Shown here: piece after piece, positions 19,446 through 55,370 of the stretch
Layout of the letters: every line of letters begins with the position of its first letter
How positions within the stretch are numbered: position 1 is the stretch's first letter
Source: an uncultured Bacteroidales bacterium
Lineage (GTDB): Bacteria; Bacteroidota; Bacteroidia; Bacteroidales; UBA932
Length of the DNA: 64,000 nt
Direction: 5' to 3'
Assembly (NCBI GenBank): GCA_900317845.1
Contig: ONII01000008.1
Location: 49,263 to 113,262 of the forward strand
Notes under the pieces: model-generated
Told to the model about the DNA's origin: nothing
Database searches by the model: none
The model's input: the letters and a program-made list of their open reading frames with translations, nothing else
Position numbers and translations under genes: made by a program

Positions 19446-20552
19446 ATGAAGAAGATTTTTGTATCGATTGCCCTGCTGGCCGCCACCGTGCTGGCTGCCC
19501 GGGCGCAGAACACCCAGGAAGCTGCGGCAGAGGCTGCGGCTGCCCTAAGCGCCGCGGACGATGTTCCGGAAAAAGTGGAGAAGCCCAAATACTGGACCAA
19601 TTCCATCCTCACCAATATCAACTTTGGCCAAACCTACCTGAGCCAGTGGGCTGCCGGTGGTTACAACAACCTGTCGCTGGCCGGCAATGTGGATGCCAGC
19701 GCCAACTTTGCCAAGGACAAACTCACCGGAACCAACCGCATCCAGCTGGACTACGGTTTCCTGTGGAGCGCAGACAAACCCATTCTCCAGAAGAACAAGG
19801 ACCGCATGTACATTGAATCCAAATGGGGTTACGAGACCCCCGTGCGTCACCTGTCCTACTCTGCCACCTTTGACTTCCTGAACCAGTTTGGCCGCAACTA
19901 TGACTATAAAACGCCGGCCACCAAGTATGACGATGACGGAAAACAGCTGGATCCCACCACGGACGACTGGCTGGGTGCCCGCGTCCTGAAATCCGGCTTC
20001 ATGGCTCCCGCCTACATCAATCTGGGTATCGGTGTGCTCTGGACCCCGGCACCGTGGGTGTCCGTGAACTTTGCCCCCCTCACCGGGAGTGCCGTCATTG
20101 TCACCATCCCGCAACTGCGCTACACCTACGGTATGGACCTCAGGGATGCAGATAAATACAAAAATTTAGCGGACGGCGAGGGAAAAGAGATTCGTAAATA
20201 CAACCAGGACAACGGATATTATGACAACTTCCGCCCTGCCCGTATGGAATTCGGTGCCCAGCTCAAGGTAGATATGGGATGGGTCATCAACGACAATTTC
20301 TCCTACACCACCCAGTTCACCGCATTCTATAACTACCTGAAACCCAAGGTGGAGCCGCGTCTTACCTGGGACAACAAAGTGTATTGGAAACTGCGCAAGT
20401 TCTTTGCCCTCACCTTGTCCACCAACCTCATTTATGACCCGCTGGTGCACGTGCGCGATACGGACAAAGACGGCAAGGCCGATGCCAAAGGCGTCCAGTT
20501 CAAGGAATTCCTGGAGTTCGGCTTTACATACAGCTTCTCGCATCAGCGCTAA
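19446..20552 (+). CDS. DUF3078 family outer-membrane-associated protein
   Basis: 368 aa from ATG at 19446, 7 bp after proS; a longer frame exists inside proS but lacks the signal peptide (MKKIFVSIALLAATVLAARAQ) at its start. The mature part carries the family pattern YWTNSILTNINFGQTYLSQWAAGGYNN, followed by beta-strand-rich sequence, and ends FGFTYSFSHQR. The domain is found in many Bacteroidota exported proteins without known function. It overlaps tilS by one base (TAATG) so the two are likely translated together. Confidence 0.85.
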   Translation: MKKIFVSIALLAATVLAARAQNTQEAAAEAAAALSAADDVPEKVEKPKYWTNSILTNINFGQTYLSQWAAGGYNNLSLAGNVDASANFAKDKLTGTNRIQLDYGFLWSADKPILQKNKDRMYIESKWGYETPVRHLSYSATFDFLNQFGRNYDYKTPATKYDDDGKQLDPTTDDWLGARVLKSGFMAPAYINLGIGVLWTPAPWVSVNFAPLTGSAVIVTIPQLRYTYGMDLRDADKYKNLADGEGKEIRKYNQDNGYYDNFRPARMEFGAQLKVDMGWVINDNFSYTTQFTAFYNYLKPKVEPRLTWDNKVYWKLRKFFALTLSTNLIYDPLVHVRDTDKDGKADAKGVQFKEFLEFGFTYSFSHQR

Positions 20553-21748
20553 TGCTCTTGGTTGCAGTCAGCGGAGGCATTGATTCTATGTGCCTTATGG
20601 AAAAGGTCCGTCAGGAAGGCGGGCCTTTTGCCGTTGCCCACTGCAACTTTGGTCTGCGGGGCGCAGAAAGCGACGCAGACGAAGCCTTTGTCCGCGAGCA
20701 GGCAGCCCGCCACCGCATCCCCTGCCACGTAAAGCGCTTTGATACAGAGGCATTTGCATCGGCAGAGGGGATTTCCATCGAGATGGCGGCCCGGCGGCTG
20801 CGGTACCACTGGTTTGGGCAACTGTGCCGGGAACACGGGTATGAGGCCGTGGCCGTGGCACACAACGCCAATGACAATGCGGAAACGCTAATCCTGAATT
20901 TGTTACGCGGAACCGGGCTGCGCGGCATCACGGGCATGAAGGCGGAAGGCTTTCTCCCGGATCCGGACTTTGGGGACATTCCCCTCCGAAGGCCGCTCCT
21001 CTCCATGACCCGGGAAGAGATTGAAGCCTTTGCCCGCGAGAAGAGCCTGTCCTGGCGCGAGGACAGCACCAATGCCCTGAACGGGTACAAACGGAACAAA
21101 ATCCGCAACCTGGTCTTTCCCATCTTTGCCACCATCAACCCCTCGTTCGTCCAAACCCTGAACCGGGATATGGAGCGATTCGCCGCAGAACTGAATCTCA
21201 TCCTCAAAAACAGCCAAAATCAAGGACGAGAGGGCGAAAACCAGGGTCTCATCCTCAAAAACAGCCAAAAACAAGGACGAGAGGTGGCACATACCTCCAA
21301 ACCCATGGCCACCCTCGGCCGTGTTAGAGGGAGGGGCCCGCGGCCGCAGGCCGTGGGAGGGACGAGGAGCGAAGCGACGAAGGGTTTGGAGGTATGTGCC
21401 ACCTCTCGTGAGTATGTTATTACTGTGGAAGAATGGGACGGAACGGAGGCGGTGAAGCAGCCGGAGGGAGTGCTCATCCTGGATGCGGAGAAGGTGGGAG
21501 CGTATGTGGAAGGGGCCTGGGAGAGCGGAGACTGGATAAAGCCGCTGGGGGCGCCGGGGCGCAAAAAACTGCAGGACTGGTTCACGGACCATCACATCCC
21601 GGCCGACGAAAAACCCTTTGTACCGCTCCTGAAAAGCGCAGCAGAGCCGCACCATGTGCTGGCCGTTATCCCCTGCTGCATCGACCATAGTGTCCGGGTC
21701 ACAGCAAGCACCCGCCGGATTCTTCGCATTTCCATAAAAAATGGTTAA
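20552..21748 (+). CDS. tilS: tRNA(Ile)-lysidine synthase, carrying an in-frame palindromic insertion
   Basis: 398 aa. The PP-loop SGGIDSM stands at residues ~7-13, so the usual short N-terminal lead is almost absent. Further TilS motifs: AHCNFGLRGAES, AVAHNANDNAETLILNLLRGTGLRGITGM and SWREDSTN, R-N-K-I-R-N. It should make lysidine at position 34 of tRNA-Ile(CAU). Residues ~216-286 do not belong to the family: they are encoded by a 38-bp tandem direct repeat plus a 133-bp palindrome (see separate entries), and the C-terminal substrate-binding domain (KPLGAPGRKKLQDWFTDHHI) resumes after it. The frame is kept throughout, so the gene is probably expressed. Confidence 0.93.
   Translation: MLLVAVSGGIDSMCLMEKVRQEGGPFAVAHCNFGLRGAESDADEAFVREQAARHRIPCHVKRFDTEAFASAEGISIEMAARRLRYHWFGQLCREHGYEAVAVAHNANDNAETLILNLLRGTGLRGITGMKAEGFLPDPDFGDIPLRRPLLSMTREEIEAFAREKSLSWREDSTNALNGYKRNKIRNLVFPIFATINPSFVQTLNRDMERFAAELNLILKNSQNQGREGENQGLILKNSQKQGREVAHTSKPMATLGRVRGRGPRPQAVGGTRSEATKGLEVCATSREYVITVEEWDGTEAVKQPEGVLILDAEKVGAYVEGAWESGDWIKPLGAPGRKKLQDWFTDHHIPADEKPFVPLLKSAAEPHHVLAVIPCCIDHSVRVTASTRRILRISIKNG
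21196..21284 (+). repeat. Tandem direct repeat (2 x 38 bp) inside tilS
   Basis: Copies 21196-21233 and 21247-21284 differ at one base; period 51 bp (17 codons), so the frame is kept (LILKNSQNQGRE / LILKNSQKQGRE). The second copy runs into the left arm of the palindrome. Confidence 0.9.
21277..21409. repeat. Palindromic insertion element, copy 1 (in tilS)
   Basis: Arms 21277-21304 and 21382-21409 are perfect 28-bp reverse complements. The 77-bp centre begins with ATGGCCACCCTCGGCCGTG (21305-21323), contains GGGAGGGGCCC, a GCGGCCGC palindrome and GGAGCGAAGCGACG. The same core occurs in opposite orientation in truB. Encodes part of the extra ~70 residues of TilS. Confidence 0.9.
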
Positions 21749-21753
21749 CTTTG
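21746..21753 (+). promoter_or_regulatory. -7 box TAACTTTG, gpmI promoter
   Basis: Exact TAnnTTTG match overlapping the tilS stop codon; start of gpmI follows 61 bp later. Confidence 0.6.
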
Positions 21754-21762
21754 CAGGCTAAG

Positions 21763-21783
21763 ATTCCCGGTCGAGCCGGGAAT
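21763..21783. repeat. Short palindrome in the gpmI leader
   Basis: ATTCCCGG-TCGAG-CCGGGAAT followed by GACCGG. Its right half (CGGAATGAC-like) resembles the repeats in the nusA leader at 30137-30210. Confidence 0.6.
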
Positions 21784-21814
21784 GACCGGAAAGAAGAAAT
21801 AAACGTTATACAAT

Positions 21815-23335
21815 ATGAACAGAAAAGTACTTCTGATGATTCTGGACGGCTGGGGCGAAGGCCGTCACGACTACTCCAACGCCATCTGGACCCAGGGTTC
21901 TCCCAACATTGACGCCCTCCGCGCCAAGTACCCGTCTTCTCACCTGCAGGCCTGCGGGGAATATGTAGGCCTTCCGGACGGCCAGATGGGCAACTCCGAA
22001 GTGGGCCACATGAACCTGGGCGCCGGTCGCGTGGTGTATCAGGACCTGGTGAAGATCAATATCGCCTGCCGTGAGCACAAACTGCTGGAAAACAAAGAGA
22101 TAAAGGCAGCCTATGACTATGTGAAGCAGAGCGGCAAAAAGCTGCATCTGATGGGCCTTACCTCCCACGGCGGCGTGCACAGCTCCCTGGACCACGTGTA
22201 CGAATTCCTGCGCGTAGCCAAGGAAGAAGGACTGGACAAAGTGTATGTCCACGCCTTCATGGACGGCCGTGACACAGACCCGCACAGCGGCCTGGGATTC
22301 GTGAAGGAGCTGGAAGAGAAAATGGCCGAAACCACCGGTAAGGTAGCTTCCGTGTGTGGCCGCTTCTATGCCATGGACCGCGACAAACGCTGGGCCCGCG
22401 TGAAAGAAGCCTATGACCTGCTGGTAGAAGGCAAGGGCGCCGCATTCGAAAGCGCCGAGGCCGGTATCCAGGCCAGCTATGATGCCGATGTTACGGACGA
22501 ATTCATCAAGCCCATCGTGGTAACGGAGAACGGCAAGCCCGTGGCCACCATCGAGGAAGGCGACGCCATCATCTTCTACAACTTCCGCAACGACCGCGCC
22601 CGCGAGCTCACCGCTGTCCTCACCCAGCAGGACATGCCGGAAGAAGGGATGCACACCCTTCCGCTGTACTACTGCTGCCTCACCCCGTACGACGCTTCCT
22701 TCAAGGGCGTGCACATCCTCTTTGACAAAGAGCTGGTGCAGGACACCCTGGGAGAAACCGTTTCCAAGGCCGGAAAACACCAGTTGCGCATTGCGGAAAC
22801 CGAGAAATACGCCCACGTGACCTTCTTCTTCAACGGCGGCCGCGAGACCGTGTTCGAGAACGAGGAACGCATCCTGGTGAACAGCCCCAAGGTTCCCACC
22901 TATGACCTTCTGCCGGCCATGAGCGCCCCGGAAGTGGCCGAAAAACTCATCGGCCAAATCCGCACCGGGAAACAGGACATGATTATCCTGAACTTCGCTA
23001 ACGGAGACATGGTGGGCCATACCGGCGTATATACCTCCATCACCCAGGCCGTCAGCTGCATCGACCGTCTGGTGAAAGAGGTGGTGGACGAGGCCATTGC
23101 CCAGGACTATGTGGTGCTGCTCACCGCGGACCATGGCAACGCAGACTTCGCCGTGAACCCGGACGGTACGCCCAATACCGCCCATTCCCTGAACACCGTT
23201 CAGTTTGTTGTAATCAATGCCGGAGAGGAAGTGAAAACCGTCAAGGACGGCGCCCTTTGCAACGTGGCCCCCACCATCCTTAAACTGATGGGCATCCCGC
23301 AGCCCGCCGCCATGACTGCGGAGCCGCTGATTTAA
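21815..23335 (+). CDS. gpmI: 2,3-bisphosphoglycerate-independent phosphoglycerate mutase
   Basis: 506 aa, normal length. Alkaline-phosphatase-superfamily metal and Ser motifs: [10 protein letters not shown] at the start, [15 protein letters not shown] (catalytic Ser), [34 protein letters not shown] and TADHGNAD. Interconverts 3- and 2-phosphoglycerate in glycolysis and gluconeogenesis, using Mn rather than a bisphosphoglycerate cofactor. Its stop overlaps the lpxD start by one base. Confidence 0.98.
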
Positions 23336-24333
23336 TGACAGCTATGGAATTTACTGCCAAATCTTTAGCTCAGTTACTGAAAGGAACGGTTGAAGGAGAC
23401 GAGAACGCCACAGCCACCAAGTTCGCCAAGATAGAACACGGAAAGCCGGGCACCCTCAGTTTCTTTGCCAATCCCAAGTACGAGCCCTTCGTATATACCA
23501 GCAAGGCTTCCATCCTCATCGTCAACAAAGACTTTGAGCCCAAGGAGCCTGTCACCCCTACCCTGGTGCGCGTGGAGAACGCCTATTCCGCCATTGCCGA
23601 CCTCCTCAAGTACGTGGCCGACAAAAAGAAGAAAGCCAAATGCCACCGCAGCCTCAGGGCCCGCTGGTTCCTGAGCACCCACTTTGGGAAGCGCGTGTAC
23701 CTGGGCGCCTTCTCCTATGTGGGGCGCCACACCACCGTGGGAGACAACACCATCATTCACGAGCAGGTGTACATTGGCGAGAACTGCACCATCGGCAGCA
23801 ATTGCATCTTTTATCCCGGCGTACGCATTTACCCGGGCATGGTGATCGGCGACAACGTCATTCTGCACAGCGGTGTGGTGATCGGGGCCGATGGTTTTGG
23901 CAACGCTCCGCGTCCGGACGGCAGTTGGGAAAAGATTGAGCACCTGGGGAACGTGGTCATCGGCAACGATGTGGAAATTGGTGCCAACAGCACCGTGGAC
24001 CGCGCGCAGATGGAGTCCACCATCATCGGCAACGGCGTCCGCATCGACAACCTGTGCATGATTGCGCACAACGTGGTAATCGGCGACCATACCGCCATGG
24101 CGGCGCAGACGGGCATCGCCGGTTCCACCGAGGTGGGAAAATACTGCATCTTCGGCGGCCAGGTGGGCATTGCCGGCCACGTGAAGATTGCCGACCATAC
24201 CACCATCATGGCGCAGGGCGGCGTTATCGGCAATATCAAGGAAGAGGGGCAGGTCCTCCTGGGCTCCCCCGCTATTGCAGCCCGCACGTACATGAAGGCC
24301 TACGCCCTTTTCAAGCGCTCCGCAGAAAGCTAA
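23335..24333 (+). CDS. lpxD: UDP-3-O-acylglucosamine N-acyltransferase
   Basis: 332 aa; ATG at 23335 overlaps the gpmI stop, an alternative ATG lies at 23344. The N-terminal uridine-binding domain ([21 protein letters not shown]) is followed by left-handed beta-helix hexapeptide repeats ([20 protein letters not shown] and similar) with the catalytic-His segment [13 protein letters not shown], and a C-terminal helix. Third step of lipid A biosynthesis. The neighbours lpxC and lpxA complete the early pathway. Confidence 0.97.
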
Positions 24334-24368
24334 CATACGGCCCGTTTGGGTATTCCATAGATTTTACT

Positions 24369-24376
24369 TATCTTTG
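24369..24376 (+). promoter_or_regulatory. -7 box TATCTTTG, lpxC promoter
   Basis: Exact TAnnTTTG match between lpxD and lpxC, 36 nt before the chosen lpxC ATG. A frame extension starting inside this box is therefore not used. Confidence 0.65.
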
Positions 24377-24412
24377 TGCACTTTTACACGTGTAACAGAG
24401 ATAAGTTTTTGC

Positions 24413-25324
24413 ATGCACAAAAACCAACATACAATCAAGAAGGCATATTATTTTCAGGGAAAAGGGCTGCACACAGGCACATACGCCCATATGAAGATTA
24501 TGCCGGCGCCGGCAGATTCCGGCATCAATTTCCGCCGGACAGACCTCCGCAGCAAGCCCGTCATCGAGGCTTTGGCGGAGAATGTGAGCAATACGGCGCG
24601 CAGCACCACCATTTCCCGCAAAGAAACTTTGGTGGTCACCATCGAGCATGTCATGAGCGCCCTCACCGGCCTGGGAATCGACAATGCTTTTATTGAGCTG
24701 GACAACATCGAGGTCCCCATTCTGGATGGCAGCGCCAAGCCGTACATCGACGCCATTCTTAAGGATGGCCTTGAGGATCAGGGTGTTCCCCGCAAATACA
24801 TCGACATTCCGCAGTCGCTGGAAATCCGCGACGACCGTTCCGGCTCCTGGGTCCGGATAGAGCCTTCCGCCGCCCCCAGCGCAGACATCACCGTAGACTT
24901 CGACTCCAAAATCCTGGGCATCCAGAGCGCCCACTGGGACGAGCACACGGACTATGCCCATGAGATTGGCGTATGCCGCACGTTCGTGTTCTTCCACGAG
25001 ATTGAATACCTGTTCCGCAACAACCTCATCAAGGGCGGCGACGTGGACAACGCCATCGTCATTGTAGAGCATCCGGTAAACGAAGAACAGCTGAGCAGTA
25101 TTTCCAACCTGTTCAACCTGCCGGGCATCAAAATCACCGACGAAGGCTACCTGAACAACCTGGAGCTGCACTTCCCGGACGAATGCGGACGTCACAAGCT
25201 GCTGGACCTCATGGGAGACCTGCGGCTGGCAGGCGGTTACCTCAACGCCCGCATTACGGCATACAAACCGGGCCATTCCATCAACACCAAGGCAGCAAAA
25301 GCCCTCCGGGCCCTGCTTAAATAG
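24413..25324 (+). CDS. lpxC: UDP-3-O-acyl-N-acetylglucosamine deacetylase, stand-alone form
   Basis: 303 aa from ATG at 24413 (MHKNQHTIKKAYYFQGKGLHTG). Zinc and catalytic motifs: TIEHVMSAL (His), GVCRTF, and GRHKLLDLMGDL (His and Asp). It removes the acetyl group in the committed step of lipid A synthesis. In most Bacteroidota LpxC is fused to a C-terminal FabZ dehydratase (about 460 aa). Here the protein stops right at the domain boundary (KPGHSINTKAAKALRALLK) and lpxA starts 7 bp later; no FabZ motif (H-F-P...PGV) is seen anywhere in the window. Confidence 0.95.
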   Translation: MHKNQHTIKKAYYFQGKGLHTGTYAHMKIMPAPADSGINFRRTDLRSKPVIEALAENVSNTARSTTISRKETLVVTIEHVMSALTGLGIDNAFIELDNIEVPILDGSAKPYIDAILKDGLEDQGVPRKYIDIPQSLEIRDDRSGSWVRIEPSAAPSADITVDFDSKILGIQSAHWDEHTDYAHEIGVCRTFVFFHEIEYLFRNNLIKGGDVDNAIVIVEHPVNEEQLSSISNLFNLPGIKITDEGYLNNLELHFPDECGRHKLLDLMGDLRLAGGYLNARITAYKPGHSINTKAAKALRALLK

Positions 25325-25331
25325 AAGAGTT

Positions 25332-26129
25332 ATGAACAAAATCCATCCCATGGCACATGTGGACCCGGCAGCCCAGCTGGGGGACAACGTAGAGATTGGA
25401 CCTTTCGCATATGTCGATGCCGGCACCGTCATTGGCGACGGCTGCCACATCATGAACGGAGCCACCATCCTCAACCATGTTAAAATGGGCTCCCAGTGCA
25501 CCGTGTTCCCCGGAGCCGTGGTAGGTGCCATTCCGCAGGACCTCAAATTCGAGGGAGAAGAATCCTGGGTGGAGATCGGTGACCGCGTGAATATCCGTGA
25601 ATGTGCCACCATCAACCGCGGTACCAAAGCCAGCGGAAAAGGCGTAACCCGCATCGGCAGCGACACCTTGATTATGTCTTACGCGCACATCGCGCACGAC
25701 TGCCAGATTGGCAATCACTGCATCATCGTGAGCTATGCCGGCCTGGCCGGTGAAACGGAAGTGCACGACTGGGGCGTGATGGGCGGCAAGTCCGGTTCCC
25801 ACCAGTTCACCAAGATAGGCGCCCATGCATTCTTAGGAGCCTACTCAAGACTCTCCAAAGATGTTCCGCCGTACGTACTGGCTGGCCGCGAACCGGTTGT
25901 GTTCGAGGGTGTTAACCGCGTAGGCCTGCTGCGTCGCGGCTTCACGGAGGAGCAGGTGAACGAGATCAAAGACATCTACGAGACGCTGTATTTCAAGGGC
26001 ATGAACGTAAGTCAGGCTGCAGAGTACATCGAGGCCAACTTCCCTCCCACTGAGCAGCGGGACACCATCCTCCGCTTCATCAAAAACTCGACCCGCGGAC
26101 TCATTCCCAAACCGCGTCCTACCCGCTAG
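25332..26129 (+). CDS. lpxA: UDP-N-acetylglucosamine acyltransferase
   Basis: 265 aa. Left-handed beta-helix hexapeptide repeats from the start (HPMAHVDPAAQLGDNVEIGPF), the catalytic segment SYAHIAHDCQIGNHCII, and the C-terminal helical domain (NRVGLLRRGFTEEQVNEIKDIYETLYF). First step of lipid A biosynthesis. Follows lpxC by 7 bp; its TAG stop shares a base with the GTG start of the next gene. Confidence 0.97.
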   Translation: MNKIHPMAHVDPAAQLGDNVEIGPFAYVDAGTVIGDGCHIMNGATILNHVKMGSQCTVFPGAVVGAIPQDLKFEGEESWVEIGDRVNIRECATINRGTKASGKGVTRIGSDTLIMSYAHIAHDCQIGNHCIIVSYAGLAGETEVHDWGVMGGKSGSHQFTKIGAHAFLGAYSRLSKDVPPYVLAGREPVVFEGVNRVGLLRRGFTEEQVNEIKDIYETLYFKGMNVSQAAEYIEANFPPTEQRDTILRFIKNSTRGLIPKPRPTR

Positions 26130-26854
26130 TGCTGCTTTCCAGCGCATATTTTCCGCCGCTGAGCTGGCTGGCGCTTGCGGCCCGCGATTTTACCCTGTCT
26201 CCGGACAGGGTTTTGCCTTCTGTAGTGCAGTTGGAAGCCTGCGAGAACTACCAGAAGCAAAGTTACCGCAACCGGTGCTACATCCTGGCCGGCGACGGCG
26301 TGCAAATGCTCCAAGTGCCAGTGAAACATGGCAAGGGAGAGGTGCCCCTTTCTTCCACGTCGCTTCGCGACCCTGTACGGGCAAATGTTCCAGAAAGGGG
26401 CGCCTCTCCCTTAAACATTCAAAACGTTCTGGTGGATTATTCCACGCCCTGGGTGGTGCGGACGCAGCGGGCGCTGGATACGGCCTATGAGACGGCGGCC
26501 TACTATGAGTATTATCGGGACGATGTCTTTTCCGTCCTGGATGCCCGGCCGGAAACCCTCTGGGAGCTGAACCTTTCCACCAGCCGCCTCCTGCTGGAGA
26601 AGACGGGCATTGCCTGCACGCTCTCCCCCACTTCGGCATTTACCGCACCCGGCAGCGAGCCGGACGACTACCGTTTCTCCATCCATCCCAAACAGCCGGA
26701 CACGGTGCTGGAGGTACTGGGCCTGGAGCGGCCTTACTATCAAGTATTTCAGGACCGCCTGGGCGGCTTTACCCCCCGGCTGAGCGCCCTGGACCTGCTG
26801 TTCAACGAGGGTCCGGACAGCATTTTGTGGCTCAAAAAACTATCAACCATATGA
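26129..26854 (+). CDS. WbqC-family protein, carrying an in-frame palindromic insertion
   Basis: 241 aa from a GTG start that overlaps the lpxA stop (TAGTG). Family features: SSAYFPPLSWLALAA near the N-terminus, ACENYQKQSYRNRCYIL, VLVDYSTPWVVRTQRAL and AYETAAYYEYYRD. WbqC-like proteins occur near polysaccharide and LPS genes; the exact reaction is not established. Residues ~69-95 (GEVPLSSTSLRDPVRANVPE and on) interrupt the family sequence between VPVKHGKG and NIQNVLVDYSTPW and are encoded by an 80-bp palindromic element. The gene overlaps rimP by 4 bp. Confidence 0.85.
   Translation: MLLSSAYFPPLSWLALAARDFTLSPDRVLPSVVQLEACENYQKQSYRNRCYILAGDGVQMLQVPVKHGKGEVPLSSTSLRDPVRANVPERGASPLNIQNVLVDYSTPWVVRTQRALDTAYETAAYYEYYRDDVFSVLDARPETLWELNLSTSRLLLEKTGIACTLSPTSAFTAPGSEPDDYRFSIHPKQPDTVLEVLGLERPYYQVFQDRLGGFTPRLSALDLLFNEGPDSILWLKKLSTI
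26333..26412. repeat. Palindromic insertion element, copy 2 (in the wbqC-like gene)
   Basis: 21-bp arms 26333-26353 and 26392-26412 pair with a single T/C difference (a G-U pair in RNA). The 38-bp centre contains CGTCGCTTCGCGACCC (26358-26373), which matches 15 of 16 bases of 54979-54994 in the truB copy. The smallest of the three copies. Confidence 0.85.
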
Positions 26855-27315
26855 ACAAGGAACAAATCATACAGGCGGTGACGCCGGCCGTGGAGCAGCG
26901 GGGCTGTTTCCTGGTAGAAGTAAGCGTAAGCGCAGAAAACGACATCGAGATTGTGATCGAGAAAGAAGAAGGCGTGGTGGACTGGGAAGACTGTGCCGCC
27001 ATTGACCAGGTGATGCACGCCGCCTTCAACCAGGACGAGGAAGACTACGCGCTCACGGTGTCATCGGCCGGACTGGACAGGCCGTTCAAGGTGCTCAAAC
27101 AATACCTCAAGGCTATTGGAAGCAAGGTGGACGTGAAGTTCAAAGGCGGGAAACGCCTGATTGCCACCCTGGAAGAGGCCACCGAGGAAAGCGTAACCCT
27201 CAACTATACCGCCCTGGAGGCCGTGGAAGGGAAAAAGAAAAAGGAGAAGGTGGAACACACGGACACCTTCTCCCTCACGGAAATCAATTCCGTTAAACCT
27301 TATATTACCTTCTAG
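26851..27315 (+). CDS. rimP: Ribosome maturation factor RimP
   Basis: 154 aa from ATG at 26851, overlapping the preceding stop as ATGA. Motifs: CFLVEVSVSAENDIEIVIEKEEG split as VEVSVSAENDIEIVI, VDWEDCAAIDQVM, and DYALTVSSAGLDRPFKVLKQY. Needed for 30S subunit assembly. In most bacteria rimP is followed directly by nusA and infB; here those genes begin 2.9 kb downstream after two unrelated genes. Confidence 0.95.
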   Translation: MNKEQIIQAVTPAVEQRGCFLVEVSVSAENDIEIVIEKEEGVVDWEDCAAIDQVMHAAFNQDEEDYALTVSSAGLDRPFKVLKQYLKAIGSKVDVKFKGGKRLIATLEEATEESVTLNYTALEAVEGKKKKEKVEHTDTFSLTEINSVKPYITF

Positions 27316-27327
27316 TTTTCCAGAAGA

Positions 27328-47897: not shown

Positions 47898-47958
47898 TAT
47901 GCCAGTAATTACCCTCTGCGGTTGCACCCGCTCGGAGAAACGGGCCATTCTCTCCGCC

Positions 47959-48903
47959 ATGCGTAAACCCCTCTTTCTCCTTTCGACCCTCTTTCTTCTT
48001 GTCGGCTGTGTGAACCTCAAGGTCTCCAAGCCGATGCTGAAGATGATCGTCGACGCGACCATCAAGCTCTCCGACGCCCCCGCCTACGCGGATTCGCTCA
48101 GGCATGTCATCGGCCTACCCTACGGGTCGGAGGACTCCGGCAGGCAGGTCATTGATATCTACTACGCCGATTCGTCCGTCCGCCGGGAGGCCGTCCTTAT
48201 CGATATCCACGGAGGGTTCTACGTGGCTGGAGACCGCCGGAGCAACCGCGCTTTCGCCTCGGCCTTCCTCAAGGAGGGCTTCGATGTTGTCCTCGTGGAG
48301 TACCGTCTTAACGACGGGGAGAGCGTCGATGTAGAAACGGAACTCGGGGACTGCGCTGCAGCGCTTGACTTCCTTGCGGACCACGCCGGGGAGCTGGGGC
48401 TTAACCGGGACGCGATGTTCCTTACCGGGGACTCGGCGGGCGGGCATTTCGCCCTCTACCTTGCGGAAGGGGCAGAGGATCATTCGCTGCCCGTCCACCC
48501 CGAGCGCTTTGTCTCCCAAGGGATCCTTATCAACTGCCCCGCATATGAGTATGAGCTTTTCGCCATCTCGAACGGCTTTACGGAGAGCGCCCTGAAGTGG
48601 TTTATCGGTCCCCGCTACCTGGACAAGGCCTGGATGGCCTCCCTGTCGCCAAGGACCCATATTGCCAGTTACACGGGACCTCTTTTCGTGTCCACCTGCA
48701 GGAACGACTTTATCCGGGATGAGGCCCTGAAGCTCGTCGGCGACTACAAGGCGCTTGGCCGCGAGGTGGAGTTCCTGGATATCCCCTCCAAGGATAAGAA
48801 GGTCGGCCACGTACACAATATCAACTTCCCGGACCTTCCGGAATCCCGGGAGGTCAACGGCAGGATGGCTGCGTTCATGCAGTCCTGCCTGGAAAAACAA
48901 TAA
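47959..48903 (+). CDS. Alpha/beta hydrolase lipoprotein (HSL-like esterase)
   Basis: 314 aa from ATG at 47959, where MRKPLFLLSTLFLLVGC is a lipoprotein signal; an earlier start just after dtd would bury that signal. Motifs: oxyanion hole DIHGGFYVAGDR, nucleophile FLTGDSAGGHFAL (Ser), Asp in CRNDFIRDEA and His in KVGHVHNI. An extracytoplasmic carboxylester hydrolase is likely; the substrate is unknown. Confidence 0.88.
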   Translation: MRKPLFLLSTLFLLVGCVNLKVSKPMLKMIVDATIKLSDAPAYADSLRHVIGLPYGSEDSGRQVIDIYYADSSVRREAVLIDIHGGFYVAGDRRSNRAFASAFLKEGFDVVLVEYRLNDGESVDVETELGDCAAALDFLADHAGELGLNRDAMFLTGDSAGGHFALYLAEGAEDHSLPVHPERFVSQGILINCPAYEYELFAISNGFTESALKWFIGPRYLDKAWMASLSPRTHIASYTGPLFVSTCRNDFIRDEALKLVGDYKALGREVEFLDIPSKDKKVGHVHNINFPDLPESREVNGRMAAFMQSCLEKQ

Positions 48904-48942
48904 TTATCTTTTAAATATTTTGGAATTATGCTCTAAAAACAT

Positions 48943-48950
48943 TATGTTTG
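48943..48950 (+). promoter_or_regulatory. -7 box TATGTTTG, AAA ATPase promoter
   Basis: TAnnTTTG match 19 nt before the ATG at 48970. Confidence 0.55.
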
Positions 48951-48969
48951 CAGAACATAATTATTGTAT

Positions 48970-50349
48970 ATGAAATTTGTAGACCGACAAAAGGAACAAC
49001 AGCGGCTGAAGGAACTCCTTCACAGTGATTCACCGCAGTTTATCATTGTCAGAGGACGCCGCAGGATAGGCAAGTCGGCATTGATAGGAAGAGTCCTTGA
49101 CAATGACGACATCTATTATGAGGCCGACAGGACCGCTGCGCCCAACCAAATGAGAGTATTTTCTCAAGTGGTTAGCCTCCGATTTCCCGGTTTCGCCGAT
49201 GCCGTTTATGCAGACTGGAAGGCTTTGCTTAAGGCCATCAATCACAGGGTGACGGGGCCGTTGACCGTGTGCCTGGATGAATTCCCCTACCTTGTAGAGA
49301 ACACGCCGGCCCTCCCTTCTATCATACAGGGATTGCTTGACGATGATAAAGACCCGCTGCGATTCAATCTGATACTTTGCGGTTCCTCGCAGCAGATGAT
49401 GTACAACCTGACACACGACGAGTCTTCACCGCTTTTCGGAAGGGATGATTCCGATTTCAATATGAGGCCCATCGCAGCTCAATTCCTTTCGGAAGCCTTG
49501 AATCTGGATCCCACGGAGACGGTGGAAAACTACGCACTATGGGGTGGAGTTCCCCGTTACTGGAAATTGAGGGAAGGTTGTTCAAGCCTAAGAGATGCCA
49601 TTGATACCCACATCTTTTCCAATATGGGAACACTGTATGAAGAGCCGCATCATCTTTTCCGGGATGATATCAGGGACCCAGTGAAGACATCGACCATTAT
49701 GTCAATTGTCGGGAATGGCATACATCGACTTTCAGAGATAGCGTCCAGGTGCAATGAGCCTGCTACAAATCTGTCAAGGCCGCTGGCCAAGCTTTTGGAT
49801 TTGGGTTATTTGGAGAAGGACATTCCCTTTGGAGAATCGGCCAAATCAAGTAAGAAGAGCCTGTACCAGATTGCCGACCCGTTCTTGAGTTTCTATTACA
49901 GGTTCGTTCCGGCCAACCGCTCTTTTATCGAGATGGACCGCCGTCTTCCGCTTGAGGCGGCATTGGATAGCCAACTAGCCTCGCATATCGGCTACTGGTG
50001 GGAGCATCTGTGCCGCGATGCCGTATCCGGCAACCGTATCGATGGGATTGTCTTTGGCAAAGCATCACGGTGGTGGGGAAAAGTACTTATAGAAGGGGAA
50101 GAAAAGCCGCGGGATGTTGAATTGGATATTGTAGCAGAGTCTATTGATGGCAAGAGCATCCTGATAGGAGAATGCAAGTGGACAATGGGAGAGAATGGAC
50201 GCTTACTAACCAATCAGTTGGAAAAGCTAGCGAAGAGCCTTCCTTTTACACAAGGCAAACAATTGATTGTAAAACTGTTTACCAAGACCAAGCCGGATGA
50301 GGATCAAGGTAATTCCCTCCTTCCCGCCGATGTGCTGGCTCTACTTTGA
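48970..50349 (+). CDS. AAA ATPase with C-terminal DUF234
   Basis: 459 aa. The start FVDRQKEQQRLKELL is typical; an in-frame TTG two codons upstream is less likely. Walker A VRGRRRIGKSALIG, Walker B LTVCLDEFPYL, a winged-helix part, and a C-terminal nuclease-like DUF234 region (EKPRDVELDIVAESIDGKSI in which Glu/Asp and ILIGECKW resemble PD-(D/E)xK strands). The family is common in archaea and anaerobic bacteria and has no settled role. The gene is more AT-rich than its neighbours, suggesting recent acquisition. Confidence 0.9.
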   Translation: MKFVDRQKEQQRLKELLHSDSPQFIIVRGRRRIGKSALIGRVLDNDDIYYEADRTAAPNQMRVFSQVVSLRFPGFADAVYADWKALLKAINHRVTGPLTVCLDEFPYLVENTPALPSIIQGLLDDDKDPLRFNLILCGSSQQMMYNLTHDESSPLFGRDDSDFNMRPIAAQFLSEALNLDPTETVENYALWGGVPRYWKLREGCSSLRDAIDTHIFSNMGTLYEEPHHLFRDDIRDPVKTSTIMSIVGNGIHRLSEIASRCNEPATNLSRPLAKLLDLGYLEKDIPFGESAKSSKKSLYQIADPFLSFYYRFVPANRSFIEMDRRLPLEAALDSQLASHIGYWWEHLCRDAVSGNRIDGIVFGKASRWWGKVLIEGEEKPRDVELDIVAESIDGKSILIGECKWTMGENGRLLTNQLEKLAKSLPFTQGKQLIVKLFTKTKPDEDQGNSLLPADVLALL

Positions 50350-50461
50350 AATCACTTTACTTCCATTGGGCGGATTGGTTAGTTGCCCTCGCAGAGAAAA
50401 GCAAAGGATTTATCCCGCTCCTGCAGCGATATCATCTATGACCTGTTCTAAGTTCAGCGCC

Positions 50462-50929
50462 CTAATCCAGTGTAATGCGCTCGATGCGGAGACGCAGGAG
50501 CCCGGAAGGCACCTGAGCCTCTGCAATTTCGCCCACCTTCTTGCCCATCAGGGCGGCACCGATGGGCGATTTGAGGGAAATCTTACCTGCCTCCAGGTCC
50601 ATCTCGTGGGGGCTCACAATCTGGAAGGTCATACGGGTTTGGGTGGACAGGTTGGTAAATTCCACCCGGCTTAGCAGGCAAACCCGGTCCTTGGGAAGGT
50701 GATTGGTGTCGATAACCCGTGCGTGCTCCAGAATACGCTGCAGGAAACGGATACGGCTGATGGTCTTCCCCTGGATGCGCCGGGCTTCACGGTAGCCCGC
50801 ATTGTCGCTCCGGTCTCCCTGGGCGCTGGCCTCCGCAAGGTCGTCCGCCACCTTGGGGTACACCTCGTTGATAAGATGCTTCAGCTCCGAGGCAATCTCG
50901 TCGTATCGTTCTTTTGACAGGTATTCCAT
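50462..50929 (-). CDS. GreA/GreB-type transcript cleavage factor
   Basis: 155 aa. The N-terminal coiled coil has the tip motif EASAQGDRSDNAGYREAR, matching the GD-x-S-[ED]-N-A-x-Y motif of GreA with both acidic residues kept; the C-terminal FKBP-like domain includes SPIGAALMGKKVGEIAEAQV. It rescues backtracked RNA polymerase. It follows the TlpA-like gene by 9 bp. Confidence 0.93.
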   Translation of the reverse strand: MEYLSKERYDEIASELKHLINEVYPKVADDLAEASAQGDRSDNAGYREARRIQGKTISRIRFLQRILEHARVIDTNHLPKDRVCLLSRVEFTNLSTQTRMTFQIVSPHEMDLEAGKISLKSPIGAALMGKKVGEIAEAQVPSGLLRLRIERITLD

Positions 50930-50938
50930 GGAGACAAC

Positions 50939-51472
50939 TCAATTCAGCACGGAAGAGAGGAATTCGGAGAGTTCGTCCCCGCGGAGATCGCAGGCCTCAA
51001 TGACGCCGTCCGGGCCGATAAGGAAGCTGGTGGGGACGCCGTCAATGCCATATTTCTGGGCGGCCTTGCACTTCCAACCGTTCAGGTCCGACAGCTGAAT
51101 CCAGGGCATGCCCCAGCCTTCTACTGCGCCCAGCCACTCATCTTTGTCCTCGTCCAGGGAGATACCCACAATCTCGAAGCCCTTGCCATGAAACTTATTG
51201 TAGGCGTCGATGACGTTGGGCATTTCTTCCTGGCAGGGGCCGCACCAGGAGGCCCAGAAATCCAGTAGAACCCATTTTCCCTTGCCGGCATACTGGCTGA
51301 GCTTATGGGTTTTTCCATTGGCGTCCTTGGACTGGACATCCAAAAAGCGCTGGCCCACCAGCGGGTTCTGGTCCTGTGCCACCGCAACGGTTTTGGCAGG
51401 AGAGGAAGGAGCGACGGAAACCATACTCAGGCAAGCGAGTACGAGAGCCATAGTGATGAAAGAAGTACGCAT
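50939..51472 (-). CDS. TlpA-like exported thioredoxin-fold protein
   Basis: 177 aa. Signal segment (MRTSFITMALVLACLSMVSV) then a TlpA/AhpC-type fold with the redox motif ASWCGPCQEEMP (CxxC) and the cis-Pro segment GIDGVPTSFLIGPDG. Periplasmic or membrane-tethered thiol-disulfide oxidoreductase. A TAAATTTG promoter lies 22 nt upstream, overlapping the hrpB stop. Confidence 0.92.
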   Translation of the reverse strand: MRTSFITMALVLACLSMVSVAPSSPAKTVAVAQDQNPLVGQRFLDVQSKDANGKTHKLSQYAGKGKWVLLDFWASWCGPCQEEMPNVIDAYNKFHGKGFEIVGISLDEDKDEWLGAVEGWGMPWIQLSDLNGWKCKAAQKYGIDGVPTSFLIGPDGVIEACDLRGDELSEFLSSVLN

Positions 51473-51494
51473 AGTCTTTGGTATTATGTTTTTA

Positions 51495-51502
51495 CAAATT
51501 TA
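51495..51502 (-). promoter_or_regulatory. -7 box TAAATTTG, tlpA-like promoter
   Basis: Exact consensus on the minus strand; overlaps the 3' end of hrpB. Confidence 0.55.
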
Positions 51503-53974
51503 GCATTTTTTCTTGATTCCGCGCACAGGGGCGGCTTCCAGCGGGTCCTCCGGCCAGGCATGTTTGGGATAGCGCCGGCGGAGTTCCTTCCGCACCTCAA
51601 AGTAGGTTCCACTCCAGAAGCTCCTGAGATCTGTTGTGAGCTGCACGGGCTTGTAGCCCGGGGACAGGAGTTCCATGAGCACCGGCGCGCCGTCCACCCT
51701 GGGCGTATCCAGCAGCCCGAAGCACTCCTGCAGGCGCACCCTTAACACCGGTGCCTCCGCCCCCTGGCGGTATTCCAGGCGGATTTGGCTGCCCGTGGGT
51801 ACGGTAATATGGGTGGGCGCCAGGCGGTCCACCGCCTGCTGCTGACTATAGGATAGCCGGCTCCAGATCACCTCGCAGAGCTTGATTTTTTTCAGTTCCG
51901 CCAGCGTTGTGGCCCCACCCACAAAGAGCGGTCCCCATTCACGGGCCGCTGCGCAAAGGGCCGTCGTATCCACCGCCGGCAGTTCCAGCTCCGGATGGCG
52001 AAGGGCCACAAAGGCGATGCGCCGCTGCAGGTTCCCGGCCTCGTCGTCAAAGGAAAGCAGGGACGTACCGTTTCTGGCGATGGCCTCGCAGACAACGACC
52101 TGCAGTTTCTCTTTCACTTCTCCGGATAAAGGCTTGGACCAGAGCAGGATAGCACCTATCCGGCATTCCCGCCGGGCCACAGCCGCACCGCCTTTGGCGT
52201 CCCAAAAGACGACGTCGCGTTCCTTGGTAAAGGCGGCCAGGTCCTCCGGGGCTACAACGCTGGCGAGGAACACCTTACCCACGCCGCCGGCACTCGGATG
52301 CATGGACGCGGCCACCACCCAATCCGCCCCGGCGAGCGGGTCCCGCGGCTCCACGGCCACCAGTTCCCCGCCTGCGAGCTGGAAGGTGCCCACACCCTCT
52401 TTCCAGGCCTTGCCGATGCGCTCCGGATAGGCCTGGGCAAGGAGCCGCCCGGCGTCATAGGGGTTCACCGGGGAGTCATCCACGGGCACATGCACCAGAT
52501 CGGCATATTGCCGGGCCACCCGCGCAATCCGACTCCAGGGGCGCGTATTCCTTCCGCGACGAAGGGCATCCAGCCGCCTGTCCACAGACACGTCTCCCTC
52601 CCCTGCCAGCGGGTCTTTTTCCTCCAAAAGGGCCGCCAGATCGGCCGCAAGGGCCTTTTCCGGGCCGGTTCTGGCACAAAGCAGCATAGCGGCAATTCGA
52701 GGATGGCACGGGAGCTTGGACAGTGCCTTTCCCCGGGCCGTAATGCTGCCTTCCGTGTCGATGGCGCCAAGCGACAGCAGGAGTTCCCGCGCATGCATAA
52801 GGGCCGGGCGCGGCGGCTCCGTGAGCCACGGGAGGCTTTCCACCTCTTTCTCGCCCCAGACGGCGCTGTCCAGCACCAGCGGCGCCAGATCGGCCTCCAG
52901 GATTTCCGGCGTGCGGATGGGGGCCATGCGGGCCTGGGTGCCCGTGCTCCAGAGCCGATAGCAAATGCCCGGCGCCACGCGTCCGGCGCGCCCCGTCCGC
53001 TGGGTGGCCATATCCAGGGAGATTCGCACCGTTTCCAGGTGCGAAAGGCCGCTCCGTGGGTCGAAGACCATCTTCCGGCAAAGGCCGCTGTCCACCACTA
53101 CGCGCACCCCTTCAATGGTGAGGGAGGTCTCGGCGATGGGCGTAGCAAGGACCACCTTCCGCTCTCCGGGGTGGCTGGGGGCGATGGCCCGCGCCTGGTC
53201 CTCGCTGGAAAGAAGGCCGAAGAGCGGATAGACGGCCGTGTTGCCCAGCTGGCCGGTCAAAAGCTCCTCCGCCTTCCGGATCTCCCCTTCTCCCGGCAGG
53301 AAAGCCAGGATATCGCCCGCATGGCTACGGTGCGCCTGAAGGACGGTTTTGGCAACGAGGGCGGCGCAGCCAAAGGCATCGGCCTCCTCTTTCGCATGAA
53401 TGACCTCCACCGGATACATTTTGCCGGCGCTTTCCACCACAGGCGCGTTCAGGTCCCGTGAAAGGACGTCCGTGTCGATGGTGGCCGACATGATGACAAT
53501 CCGCAGGTCCTCCCTCAGGAGGGAGCGGCACTGCCGCGTGAGGGCGAGGGCTTCATCGGAGGTGAGGCTGCGCTCGTGGAATTCGTCAAAGATAACCGTC
53601 CCTACCCCTTCCAGGGCGGGATCGTCCAGCAGCATCCGTGTGAGGATGCCCTCTGTGACCACCTCCACGCGGGTTTTGGAGCTTATGCGGCTTTCCAGGC
53701 GGATGCGGTAGCCCACCGTCTCCCCCACCTGCTCCCCCAGGAGCCAGGCCATGCGGGAAGCCACCTGCCGGGCCGCCACCCGCCGGGGCTCCAGGAGAAT
53801 CACCTTCCCCTGAGGAAAGGCCTCCGCAATGGTCAGCGGCAGCACGGTGGATTTACCCGCCCCGGGCGGCGCCGTCACAATGACGCACCCCCGCTCCGCC
53901 AGGACACGGTTCACCTCCCCCGCAATCCCATAGGCCGGCAGGGCAGCAATCTCCGTATGACGGGCGATAGTCAA
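51500..53974 (-). CDS. hrpB: ATP-dependent helicase HrpB
   Basis: 824 aa from a TTG at 53974; an earlier TTG is part of the promoter box and no ATG fits. DEAH-box motifs: I APPGAGKSTVLPL, II VIFDEFHERSL, III MSAT, VI QRTGRAGR. The HA2/OB part and the HrpB C-terminal domain (FWSGTYFEVRKELRRRYPKHAWPEDP read in parts) are present. RNA helicase family member of unclear substrate. Predicted to be read from a nearly leaderless transcript. Confidence 0.93.
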   Translation of the reverse strand: MTIARHTEIAALPAYGIAGEVNRVLAERGCVIVTAPPGAGKSTVLPLTIAEAFPQGKVILLEPRRVAARQVASRMAWLLGEQVGETVGYRIRLESRISSKTRVEVVTEGILTRMLLDDPALEGVGTVIFDEFHERSLTSDEALALTRQCRSLLREDLRIVIMSATIDTDVLSRDLNAPVVESAGKMYPVEVIHAKEEADAFGCAALVAKTVLQAHRSHAGDILAFLPGEGEIRKAEELLTGQLGNTAVYPLFGLLSSEDQARAIAPSHPGERKVVLATPIAETSLTIEGVRVVVDSGLCRKMVFDPRSGLSHLETVRISLDMATQRTGRAGRVAPGICYRLWSTGTQARMAPIRTPEILEADLAPLVLDSAVWGEKEVESLPWLTEPPRPALMHARELLLSLGAIDTEGSITARGKALSKLPCHPRIAAMLLCARTGPEKALAADLAALLEEKDPLAGEGDVSVDRRLDALRRGRNTRPWSRIARVARQYADLVHVPVDDSPVNPYDAGRLLAQAYPERIGKAWKEGVGTFQLAGGELVAVEPRDPLAGADWVVAASMHPSAGGVGKVFLASVVAPEDLAAFTKERDVVFWDAKGGAAVARRECRIGAILLWSKPLSGEVKEKLQVVVCEAIARNGTSLLSFDDEAGNLQRRIAFVALRHPELELPAVDTTALCAAAREWGPLFVGGATTLAELKKIKLCEVIWSRLSYSQQQAVDRLAPTHITVPTGSQIRLEYRQGAEAPVLRVRLQECFGLLDTPRVDGAPVLMELLSPGYKPVQLTTDLRSFWSGTYFEVRKELRRRYPKHAWPEDPLEAAPVRGIKKKC

Positions 53975-53980
53975 TGTATG

Positions 53981-53988
53981 CAAAGATA
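53981..53988 (-). promoter_or_regulatory. -7 box TATCTTTG, hrpB promoter
   Basis: Exact consensus on the minus strand, 6 nt before the TTG chosen as hrpB start. Confidence 0.55.
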
Positions 53989-54011
53989 TCGGGAAATTTC
54001 CATAAAATTGC

Positions 54012-54019
54012 TACATTTG
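54012..54019 (+). promoter_or_regulatory. -7 box TACATTTG, rpiB-truB promoter
   Basis: Exact TAnnTTTG match 21 nt before the rpiB ATG. Back to back with the hrpB promoter. Confidence 0.6.
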
Positions 54020-54040
54020 TACGATAAACTTAGGACGATT

Positions 54041-54405
54041 ATGAAAATTGGCATTTGCAATGACCACGCGGGCGTGGAGTACAAGTTCAAGCTTGTGAAA
54101 ATGCTGCAGAAGCGCGGCATCGAGGTAGTGAATTTTGGCACGGATACCACAGACAGCGTGGACTATCCGGACTTTGCCCATAAGCTGGCCTATGCCGTGA
54201 CAAGCACCAGGGCATCCGCGCCGGCCTGGCCTGGGGCACCGCTATCGGCCATCTGGTGGCGCAGCACAACAACGCAAACGTGCTGGTGCTGCCGGCCCGC
54301 TTCATCAGCTACCGCCTGGCATCGGCCATCGTGCGCGAATGGCTGGACACCCCGTTCGAGGGCGGCCGGCACCAGAAGCGCATCGACAAGATGCCCGTTA
54401 AATGA
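54041..54405 (+). pseudogene. rpiB: Ribose-5-phosphate isomerase B, internally deleted
   Basis: The first ~53 codons (MKIGICNDHAGVEYKFKL ... DYPDFAHKLAYAV) and, in another frame, the last ~67 codons (KHQGIRAGLAWGTAIGHLV ... EGGRHQKRIDKMPVK) are clear RpiB. Between them, at about 54200, some 22-23 codons are missing, including the segment with the active-site Cys (CGTGNG-type motif), and the frame is shifted (total 365 nt, not a multiple of 3). Unless this is an assembly error, the gene cannot make active enzyme. Its end overlaps the truB start by 4 bp, so ribosomes may still reach truB by coupling only if they terminate nearby. Confidence 0.85.
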
Positions 54406-55370
54406 GTTTCTCCCGTGACATTGCCGACTATCCGGAAGGCATTGTGCTGGCGGTAGACAAGCCCTACCGCTGGACCTCGGCCGACGTCATCCGCAAGCTC
54501 AAGTATGCCGCCATCAAGCACTTCGGGAAGAAGAACCTGAAGGTGGGACATGCGGGTACGCTGGATCCGCTGGCAACGGGGGTGCTGCTGGTTTGCATCG
54601 GCAATGCCTGCAAACGGGCGCAGGAGCTGCAGGACCACGACAAAGAGTACATTGCGCGCATCCGCTTTGGCGCCACCACCCCGTCGTACGACCTGGAGAA
54701 GGAGGTGGACCGCCGGTTCCCGTATGAGCATATTACGGCCGATGCCGTTCGCGCCGCCCTTCCCGCCTTCCTGGGCGAGCAGGAGCAGGTGGCCCCGCTG
54801 TTCAGCGCCAAGAGCGTGGACGGGGTCCGGGCCTATGAACTGGCCCGGAAGCTGTACCGTGCCGGCAAGACGGAGGCCATCGACGCCGCCGCCCTTGAGA
54901 CCCTTCACCGTAACCGCATCAACATCAGCGAGTTGGAGCTGTTAAGCTATGCGGAGGAGGGTATAGAGGTCTCCGAACCGTCGCTCCGCGACCCCTCCCA
55001 TTCGCAACGTGCTGCGCACGGCTCTGGGCCCCTCCCGTTCCGGGAGAGATTTTCCCCCTATAATCCCCAAGGGGATACTTGCCCTGACGGGGCACGGCCG
55101 AGGGTGGCCATGGGTTCGGAGACCTCCATACCCTCCTCCGCATCGTCCCGCATCCATGTGGCAGACACTTCGGGCATGGGGCTGCCGGAGGCCACCATCC
55201 GCATCGCGTGCTCCAAAGGCACGTACATCCGCGCCTTCGCCCGCGACCTGGGAGAGACGTTGGGCTCCGGGGCGCACCTGAGCGGGCTCATCCGCTCCCG
55301 GAGCGGAGATTATACCATCGACCAGGCGCTTTCCGTAGAGGAGGCCCTGACATTATTACAAGCAGAATGA
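54402..55370 (+). CDS. truB: tRNA pseudouridine(55) synthase, carrying an in-frame palindromic insertion
   Basis: 322 aa. Catalytic motif KVGHAGTLDPLATGVL (Asp) in the N-terminal part, YIARIRFGATTPSYD, and near the end ATIRIACSKGTYIRAFARDL (KGTYIR motif). Makes pseudouridine 55 in the T-loop of tRNAs. Residues ~184-247 (SYAEEG | IEVSEPSLRDPSHSQ ...) do not fit the family and correspond to a 191-bp palindromic element; removal would leave ~258 aa, close to the usual size. The frame is open, so the product probably folds with a surface loop there. Confidence 0.93.
   Translation: MSFSRDIADYPEGIVLAVDKPYRWTSADVIRKLKYAAIKHFGKKNLKVGHAGTLDPLATGVLLVCIGNACKRAQELQDHDKEYIARIRFGATTPSYDLEKEVDRRFPYEHITADAVRAALPAFLGEQEQVAPLFSAKSVDGVRAYELARKLYRAGKTEAIDAAALETLHRNRINISELELLSYAEEGIEVSEPSLRDPSHSQRAAHGSGPLPFRERFSPYNPQGDTCPDGARPRVAMGSETSIPSSASSRIHVADTSGMGLPEATIRIACSKGTYIRAFARDLGETLGSGAHLSGLIRSRSGDYTIDQALSVEEALTLLQAE
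54951..55141. repeat. Palindromic insertion element, copy 3 (in truB)
   Basis: 29-bp arms 54951-54979 and 55113-55141 pair with one A/G difference. The complement of 55093-55111 is ATGGCCACCCTCGGCCGTG, identical to 21305-21323 in tilS; GGGAGGGGCCC, GGGAGGG and a GGAGCGACG-type word are also shared, in the same order. The copy is inserted in opposite orientation relative to the one in tilS and has ~60 bp more in the middle. Confidence 0.9.

Follow-up and report, generated by a model that had tools for sequence, protein, structure and literature searches.

Mobile palindromic elements inserted in frame in genes of Candidatus Cryptobacteroides, with an inverted copy of the target at informative sites

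Three conserved genes, tilS, a wbqC-like gene and truB, carry long palindromes within their coding sequences in a 64,000-nucleotide stretch of DNA (the window) from an uncultured Bacteroidales bacterium (GenBank assembly GCA_900317845.1, contig ONII01000008.1, positions 49,263 to 113,262). In this study, we found that these palindromes are copies of two related mobile-element families, A and B, in the gut bacteria Candidatus Cryptobacteroides (Bacteroidales). The copies are dispersed, differ in presence and absence between species, leave the reading frames open and have a folded core. An oddity missed by the original prediction is that the arms are locus-specific; at informative element-free sites one arm is the old target and the other is its inverted copy. 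The reading of these sequences as inserted mobile palindromes was supported, and the finding is real and larger than first described. It is probably best explained by a non-autonomous, single-stranded element of the REPIN (paired repetitive extragenic palindromic, REP, sequences) or MITE (miniature inverted-repeat transposable element) type, inserted with fold-back copying of its target.

The three palindromes had been placed in a single family. Their kinship as mobile elements held, but two related families are involved, with family B in tilS and truB and family A in wbqC. As predicted, the 19-mer ATGGCCACCCTCGGCCGTG is common to tilS and truB in opposite orientation, the tilS core lying on the minus strand and the truB core on the plus strand. 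In the 2.41-Mb genome we counted this 19-mer 6 times and GTCGCTYCGCGACC 10 times, and the reversed control of each gave 0 hits. A 35-nt word from wbqC was found 4 times. The search for further copies that had been proposed was therefore productive. Four copies of the 38-bp family A core lie in this genome, in wbqC, fmt, atpG and an M20 peptidase gene. The core of family B is longer and its hairpins vary; its hosts include tilS, truB, truA, an NTP-transferase gene and an mtaB/miaB-type gene, and it is also found elsewhere, in some cases with no open reading frame (ORF) running through the copy. Both families hold the hairpin word GTCGCTTCGCGACCC, with variants in B.

The word GTCGCTYCGCGACCC was detected in 46 of 151 genomes of the genus, with up to 22 copies each. 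A hand sum over the 151 genomes gave 229 places, compared to 5 for the reversed control. Among 97 distinct words, 89 lay within an inverted repeat scoring at least 10 and 81 within one scoring at least 15. Related loci totalling 973,510 bases held 22 strong inverted repeats, compared to 0 in one base-triplet shuffle. One of these, in L172, is probably a fold-back at the end of a contig; not every one of the others is of this element kind. In L172 (7422-7761), 142-bp inverted arms surround a B-type core and reach the contig end, where the assembler probably turned back at the hairpin. The exact B core pattern matched 1 of 159 genomes of the order, namely the genome of the window; in that draw, the genus and the family were represented by only one further genome each. 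One pattern per core (A and B) gave 0 exact matches in viral contigs (IMG/VR). Inverted repeats with much smaller cores (14-21 bp) were seen at L154:10924-10992, L143:1539-1605, L218 and L214, and may be other families of the same kind; the one in L214 adjoins a family A-like core in truB.

We compared filled sites with element-free relatives. The clearest case of an inverted target copy is trmB. The empty allele of G149 (flanks 92/92%) has a 23-bp target followed by AAAGATG. The filled allele of G064 has the same 23 bp, then AACC-core-GGTT, then the inverted 23 bp with 2 changes, and then AAAGATG. The insert is 96 bp (32 codons, in frame), and no target bases were lost. Because the element-free G003 has matching codons, the target is old. 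At truA, the empty allele of G038 (94/92%) contains only the outer 12-13 bp of one arm, and ACCC is repeated at the junction opposite the target arm. In the M20 gene, the empty allele of G005 matches 17/19 bases of one arm, and about 11 bp present there are missing from the filled allele. The stretch matching the empty relative is shorter at fmt. Of the two clean sites, trmB has no direct target-site duplication and truA has only its 4 repeated bp. The target can lie on either side of the core. It is the left arm at trmB and the NTP-transferase gene, and the right arm at truA, at the M20 gene and, probably, in both insertions into wbqC.

Orthologues had been suggested as a source of empty sites for the window genes, and the wbqC insert was indeed absent from 8/8 relatives alignable at the site (from 10 tblastn loci, one was without a usable forward-strand match and another, L129, is a further element copy). 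Of the two outcomes named beforehand as refuting the original prediction, neither was seen. An independent insertion lies at the same place in wbqC of G028; its right arm codes for I-S-S-V, compared to I-T-R-V in L195, and its score in the swap test described below was low.

The swap test measured the gain in alignment score when a site's own arm was added to the flank, against arms swapped among sites in 500 shuffles. At 31 sites with an element-free relative, the gain was 356, compared to 77.6 for swapped arms (sd 17.7, maximum 145 of 500). The gain was 184 against 50.9 (sd 11.7, maximum 92 of 500) at the 27 sites that were left after setting aside L001, L013 and L123 (possible remnants) and L047 (a repeat of L106).

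Arms were counted in the 81 copies scoring at least 15, which gave 65 elements after like-armed copies were merged. Their median length was 26 bp, 32/65 were perfect, and 54 mismatches occurred in 1,652 pairs. Among 14 independent copies of family A, pairwise identity was 0.98 in the core and 0.47 in the outer arm, and arm-to-arm complementarity within a copy was 0.97. The arm-to-arm match drops at about 20 bp in A and about 27 bp in B. The element-free sister genomes indicate that the arms are near-perfect yet differ from locus to locus because one is the original target and the other its inverted copy.

The mismatches in the arms are biased to one strand. They are G.T on the strand opposite GTCGCT in 32 cases and on the other strand in 6 (p 2e-5). 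By gene strand, 9 wobble pairs fell on the mRNA strand and 15 on the antisense strand (31 loci with hand-entered gene strands, most from Pfam and some by eye), and the bias follows the core strand. Selection for a hairpin in the host mRNA is not supported by these counts. A copying-error origin of the A/C arm mismatches was also dropped, as their pattern goes with the core strand regardless of which arm represents the target. Since the bias is independent of the host mRNA strand, a DNA strand is indicated as the folded form, and a one-strand bias of this kind would be expected with one of the two DNA strands as the substrate that folds.

The B core contains three covarying hairpins and a covarying pairing between a loop and a connector. 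The alignment covered 41 of 68 distinct cores, mostly short ones; the sameness of CCCTCCC-, GGGCCCCTCCC- and GCCGAGGGTGGC-type words in it is by construction, because the selection pattern fixes them. In the stems, 93.9% of pair cells form, compared to 82.9% in shuffled alignments, and covariation was 0.286 compared to 0.099. Sliding the pairing partners abolished the signal. RNAalifold alone found little covariation (-0.06) and favoured the connector-loop helix. Hairpin 3 has a loop complementary to the connector that immediately precedes the hairpin, and both vary in step. In 161 occurrences, counted as copies and not as independent events, the connector/loop pairs were CCCTC/GAGGG (127), CCCCC/GGGGG (9), CCCGT/ACGGG (6) and CCCGC/GCGGG (2); a hairpin without a match was present in 10 (6 with CCCGT), and no hairpin was found in 7. 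Rfam at the gathering threshold gave no match in the window, L019, L091 and L106 except one tRNA.

The three elements of the window are listed in Table 1. All three palindromes are where they had been predicted, and ORF analysis showed the frame open through each insert. Their repeats are numbers 1, 2 and 4 in a list of 18 inverted repeats found in the window with a minimum arm length of 16 nt and a maximum distance of 400. Arm complementarity is 28/28 in tilS, 20/21 in the wbqC-like gene and 30/31 in truB; the arm lengths agree with the original prediction for the first two, while the truB arms are slightly longer than it gave. The arms of the three copies are mostly different, and the shared part is what lies between them, the cores. 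The truB core has an extra stretch of about 60 nt in common with truA (C28) and with the copy at C31. With its arms, the minus strand of the truB element folds as DNA at -66 kcal/mol (z -7.5). The tilS insertion is also present in L128, where a T/A change is mirrored in both arms. It had been proposed that the inserts fall between conserved domain blocks. TilS and TruB have Pfam matches on both sides; in WbqC the match starts at residue 93, close to where the insert ends on the right.

Table 1. Positions of the palindromic elements and their host genes in the window
Feature	Position	Strand	Basis or remark
tilS, tRNA(Ile)-lysidine synthase, host of family B	20552..21748	+	ORF; PF01171 (residues 2-186) and PF11734 (324-362) flank the insert
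tilS left arm, locus-specific, 28 bp, perfect	21277..21304		Inverted-repeat search
tilS family B core, minus-strand reading	21305..21381	-	Hairpin 3, 21305-21323; connector GGGCCCCTCCC, 21329-21339
tilS right arm, reverse complement of left	21382..21409		Inverted-repeat search
wbqC-like gene, host of family A	26129..26854	+	PF08889
wbqC left arm	26333..26353		Probable newly made inverted copy
wbqC family A core, 38 bp	26354..26391	+	35-nt word identical in 4/4 genomic copies
wbqC right arm	26392..26412		Probable original target; outer GCCTCT matches element-free L133 (short match)
truB, tRNA pseudouridine synthase, host of long-core family B element	54402..55370	+	PF01509 (44-151) and PF16198 (277-314) flank the insert
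truB left arm, 31 nt	54949..54979		Inverted-repeat search
truB family B core	54980..55112	+	Hairpin 1, 54980-54992; connector GGGCCCCTCCC, 55026-55036; hairpin 3 near 55093-55111
truB right arm	55113..55143		30/31 complementary to left arm

Other repeats were seen in the window. Left of the tilS element (21199-21290), the peptide LILKNSQ.QGRE is present twice as an imperfect tandem of about 49 bp, with a similar arrangement in L128; this duplication is absent from the list of Tandem Repeats Finder. A palindrome resembling CGTC-tagged REPs, GATTCCCGG...CCGGGAATGAC, lies between tilS and a phosphoglycerate mutase gene (21763-21787). A 29-nt inverted repeat with a 6-nt loop (57556-57619), directly after a tRNA gene (57470-57556), is probably a terminator.

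In-frame insertion into unrelated protein genes, a trait of the Rickettsia palindromic elements (RPE), was found here as well. Among 82 elements, 54 lie inside a through-running ORF of at least 150 aa and 28 lie outside such ORFs. We scanned 30 of the 54 ORFs, leaving aside frames that looked antisense by eye and others, and found Pfam domains in 27/30. The interrupted genes include AtpG (the gene at L013, by Pfam), AtpB, DnaX, UvrA, RsmH, CysS and AroB. One domain match spans the element in 10 of the 27; otherwise the element lies between, beside or outside matches. When AtpG and RsmH are aligned to solved homologues, the match is interrupted at the insert and picks up again after it. Two loops are hot-spots, each with 30 loci fetched: an inverted repeat scoring at least 15 was present in 15 of 22 excisable TruB loops and in 12 of 30 MtaB loops, with the core in either orientation and the arms often different. 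In sister species, the same gene loops (tilS of L132, mtaB of L267, fmt of L284, the M20 gene of L288 and atpG of L297) hold other small repeats, of the TCATTCTGAGCG...AAGAATCT type and of a CGTC-REP-like GTCATGCCCGGC...GCCGGGCATC type.

To judge from sequence, insertions would survive where they add whole codons, leave the frame open and fall in a loop or linker, so that the inserted peptide most likely stays in the product. The insertions write new peptides, about 25-66 residues with the arms, into ATP synthase subunits, DnaX, RsmH, CysS and tRNA-modifying enzymes, so the genus amounts to a natural insertion-tolerance experiment.

A search for a transposase covered the Y1 family only. A match resembling the REP-associated tyrosine transposases (RAYT) was present in 110 of 151 genomes, 99 of them above the cut-off; five Y1 examples match NF047646 below its cut-off (24.8-49.9 of 80 bits). 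G000 is among the genomes that encode such proteins, for example at L386:992-1948. Y1 was found in 44/46 word-positive and 66/105 word-negative genomes (Fisher 8e-6; tables counted by eye). In L412 and L420, a B connector lies near a Y1 gene, within the neighbouring truB. Tentatively, we regard the RAYT-like HUH (Y1) transposase as the leading candidate for the cutting enzyme, at a likelihood well below even. Several Y1 genes are flanked by short palindromes of their own, and by eye those at L401, L406, L410 and L417 have locus-specific inverted extensions of 7-14 bp. The RAYT-linked REPs of these genomes, some with such extensions, may reach the same outcome as families A and B.

We propose that the mobile unit would be a short core with internal structure, bounded by a small inverted repeat that reads AACC...GGTT in B and roughly TTTCC...GGAAA in A. 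The core would insert next to a target, and about 10-25 bp of the target would be copied in inverted form on its far side. The outcome would be target-core-target', a near-perfect hairpin specific to the locus. The core may act as single-stranded DNA, cleavage being predicted at its ends on one strand only, the strand opposite GTCGCTTCGCGACC, and a fork or nick could supply the free 3' end to which it is joined. The 3' end of the core itself would then fold back onto the short terminal repeat and prime copying of the flank. Synthesis would return imprecisely to the original template, exactly at trmB, with 4 bp repeated at truA and with about 11 bp lost at the M20 site. A class of mobile element with an insertion route of its own, in which a pseudoknotted single-stranded core is joined to the target 3' end and snaps back with the target strand as template, seems to us about evenly balanced between right and wrong; it would place every insertion in a custom palindrome, an inverted target-site duplication.

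Several observations weigh against fold-back copying by a mobile core. Only 10 of the 31 sites in the swap test beat all 30 swaps. Among them, three (L001/L276, L013/L270, L123/L360) are possible deletion remnants, and a further two represent a single insertion that two genomes carry. In the remaining 21 sites, which include the window wbqC (score 0 against L128) and mtaB of the same genome, the loop of the relative has diverged, holds other repeats or gives no match. A weak motif of about CGGAGG is common to the outer arms, which may therefore be intrinsic in part, or the target may be chosen. An enclosing inverted repeat scoring 10 is missing from 8/97 word occurrences, and the words read from G134 (L098-L102) are surrounded by another kind of core, their arms being weak or absent. 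As for the enzyme, the association statistic ignores kinship, two word-positive genomes are without a Y1 match (G140, 87% complete, 11 words; G144, 58% complete, 2 words), and an A or B core flanked the Y1 gene in 0 of 40 fetched Y1 regions, among the matches listed. The context of GTCGCTYCGCGACCC in L098-L102 of G134 is CTCCCTGTCGCT..CGCGACCCAGT, a relative that may spread differently.

The alternative that survives best, although we consider it unlikely, is a two-step origin, in which the core is inserted in an ordinary way and template switching in replication at the short terminal repeat then copies one flank to the opposite side and keeps the arms alike. Template switching between the arms of inverted repeats homogenises arms and inverts spacers in coding DNA (PMC8604942; papers are cited here and below for the parts of them that were accessible). 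In line with this, the truB core is inverted in G005, G037 and G038 relative to G000, the truB arms differ between species yet each pair matches, and the return junctions at truA and the M20 gene are imprecise. However, 81 of the 97 word copies already have arms scoring at least 15, lengths are similar within a family, and few armless intact copies were seen. Lower still in probability is the explanation that these are ordinary REP-type palindromes with intrinsic arms, which drifted after insertion while selection for the hairpin kept them complementary. The motif common to the arms, matched changes between orthologous copies and the one-strand wobble bias would fit it, but one arm is present in element-free relatives, and trmB and truA contradict it. 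There was also no time for drift, because family A cores are identical within a genome while their outer arms differ at about half of the positions; on the same grounds, identical cores with different arms, we rejected a slow divergence of the arms from a single ancestral one.

We consider it very improbable that the elements inserted into the loops of pre-existing palindromes. The core-free L276 is itself palindromic at the NTP-transferase site, and REP dimers lie inside palindromes in A. variabilis and H. neapolitanus (PMC3733652), but by eye no palindrome is present at the site in relatives for trmB, truA, the M20 gene and wbqC, and a pre-insertion palindrome is rejected at these four genes by element-free relatives. 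An assembly or amplification artefact of metagenome-assembled genomes, which the probable fold-back contig end in L172 would exemplify, can hardly account for genes that continue in frame on both sides or for the same insertions with matching arms across species (tilS in L128, the truB site in G005, G037 and G038, and mtaB in five genomes).

In general, transposition is known to give either a direct duplication of its target or none. An inverted copy left by an element points to a different route of joining and repair, and inverted target copying would account for the repeated origin of long perfect hairpins that have unrelated sequences. The spread of REP-like elements without a cognate transposase also becomes a testable question. 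Short template-switch or fold-back mutations involve, as far as we know, no mobile core. MITEs leave direct target duplications.

The papers found in the searched literature library, in their accessible parts, gave no account of these elements, nor of any mobile element that duplicates its target in inverted form, and the word Bacteroid- does not appear in the accessible part of a survey of perfect inverted repeats (PMC13155455). Novelty is limited by prior art, namely in-frame REP insertions, reported in tnpA-REP genes of subclass 2.4 (PMC6006769), REP dimers inside palindromes, and RPE. Like the elements described here, RPE are palindromic repeats in frame in unrelated genes, of about 150 bp compared to 74-197 bp here (PMC10969869, PMC3733652). 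They differ, as far as these descriptions go, in that their families are defined by the conserved element, with no inverted target copy described, and in their host group. Long perfect inverted repeats inside translated genes are also known from Nematomorpha mitochondria, where both arms encode conserved protein and the accessible text mentions no repeated core (PMC6649704). Template-switch mutations and fold-back inversions likewise produce inverted copies beside their origin and homogenise arms (PMC8604942; PMC8794818, PMC10622511), whereas here a conserved element lies at the turn.

The REP/REPIN and RAYT system resembles families A and B in its short hairpin elements, which are non-autonomous and present in many copies, and RAYT-like genes are present in the genus. 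In contrast, A and B cores flank no RAYT gene that we saw and often lie inside genes, and B has three hairpins with loop-connector pairing. CGTC-tagged REPs, for which no dedicated transposase has been found, are reported from Bacteroidetes among other phyla and include RPE-4 and RPE-6 (PMC3733652). Their stems are 8-9 bp with CCA-type tails, whereas hairpin 1 of B varies; with respect to a GTAG/CGTC tag at the hairpin foot, CGTC is common in B and not always kept (variants without it include L135, L235 and L252). MITEs share the non-autonomous state, the terminal inverted repeats and known in-frame fusions (PMC10969869), while the elements here carry an inverted target duplication. Families A and B belong to the broad REP-, RPE- and MITE-like kind, and they are set apart by the inverted target copy and the folded core.

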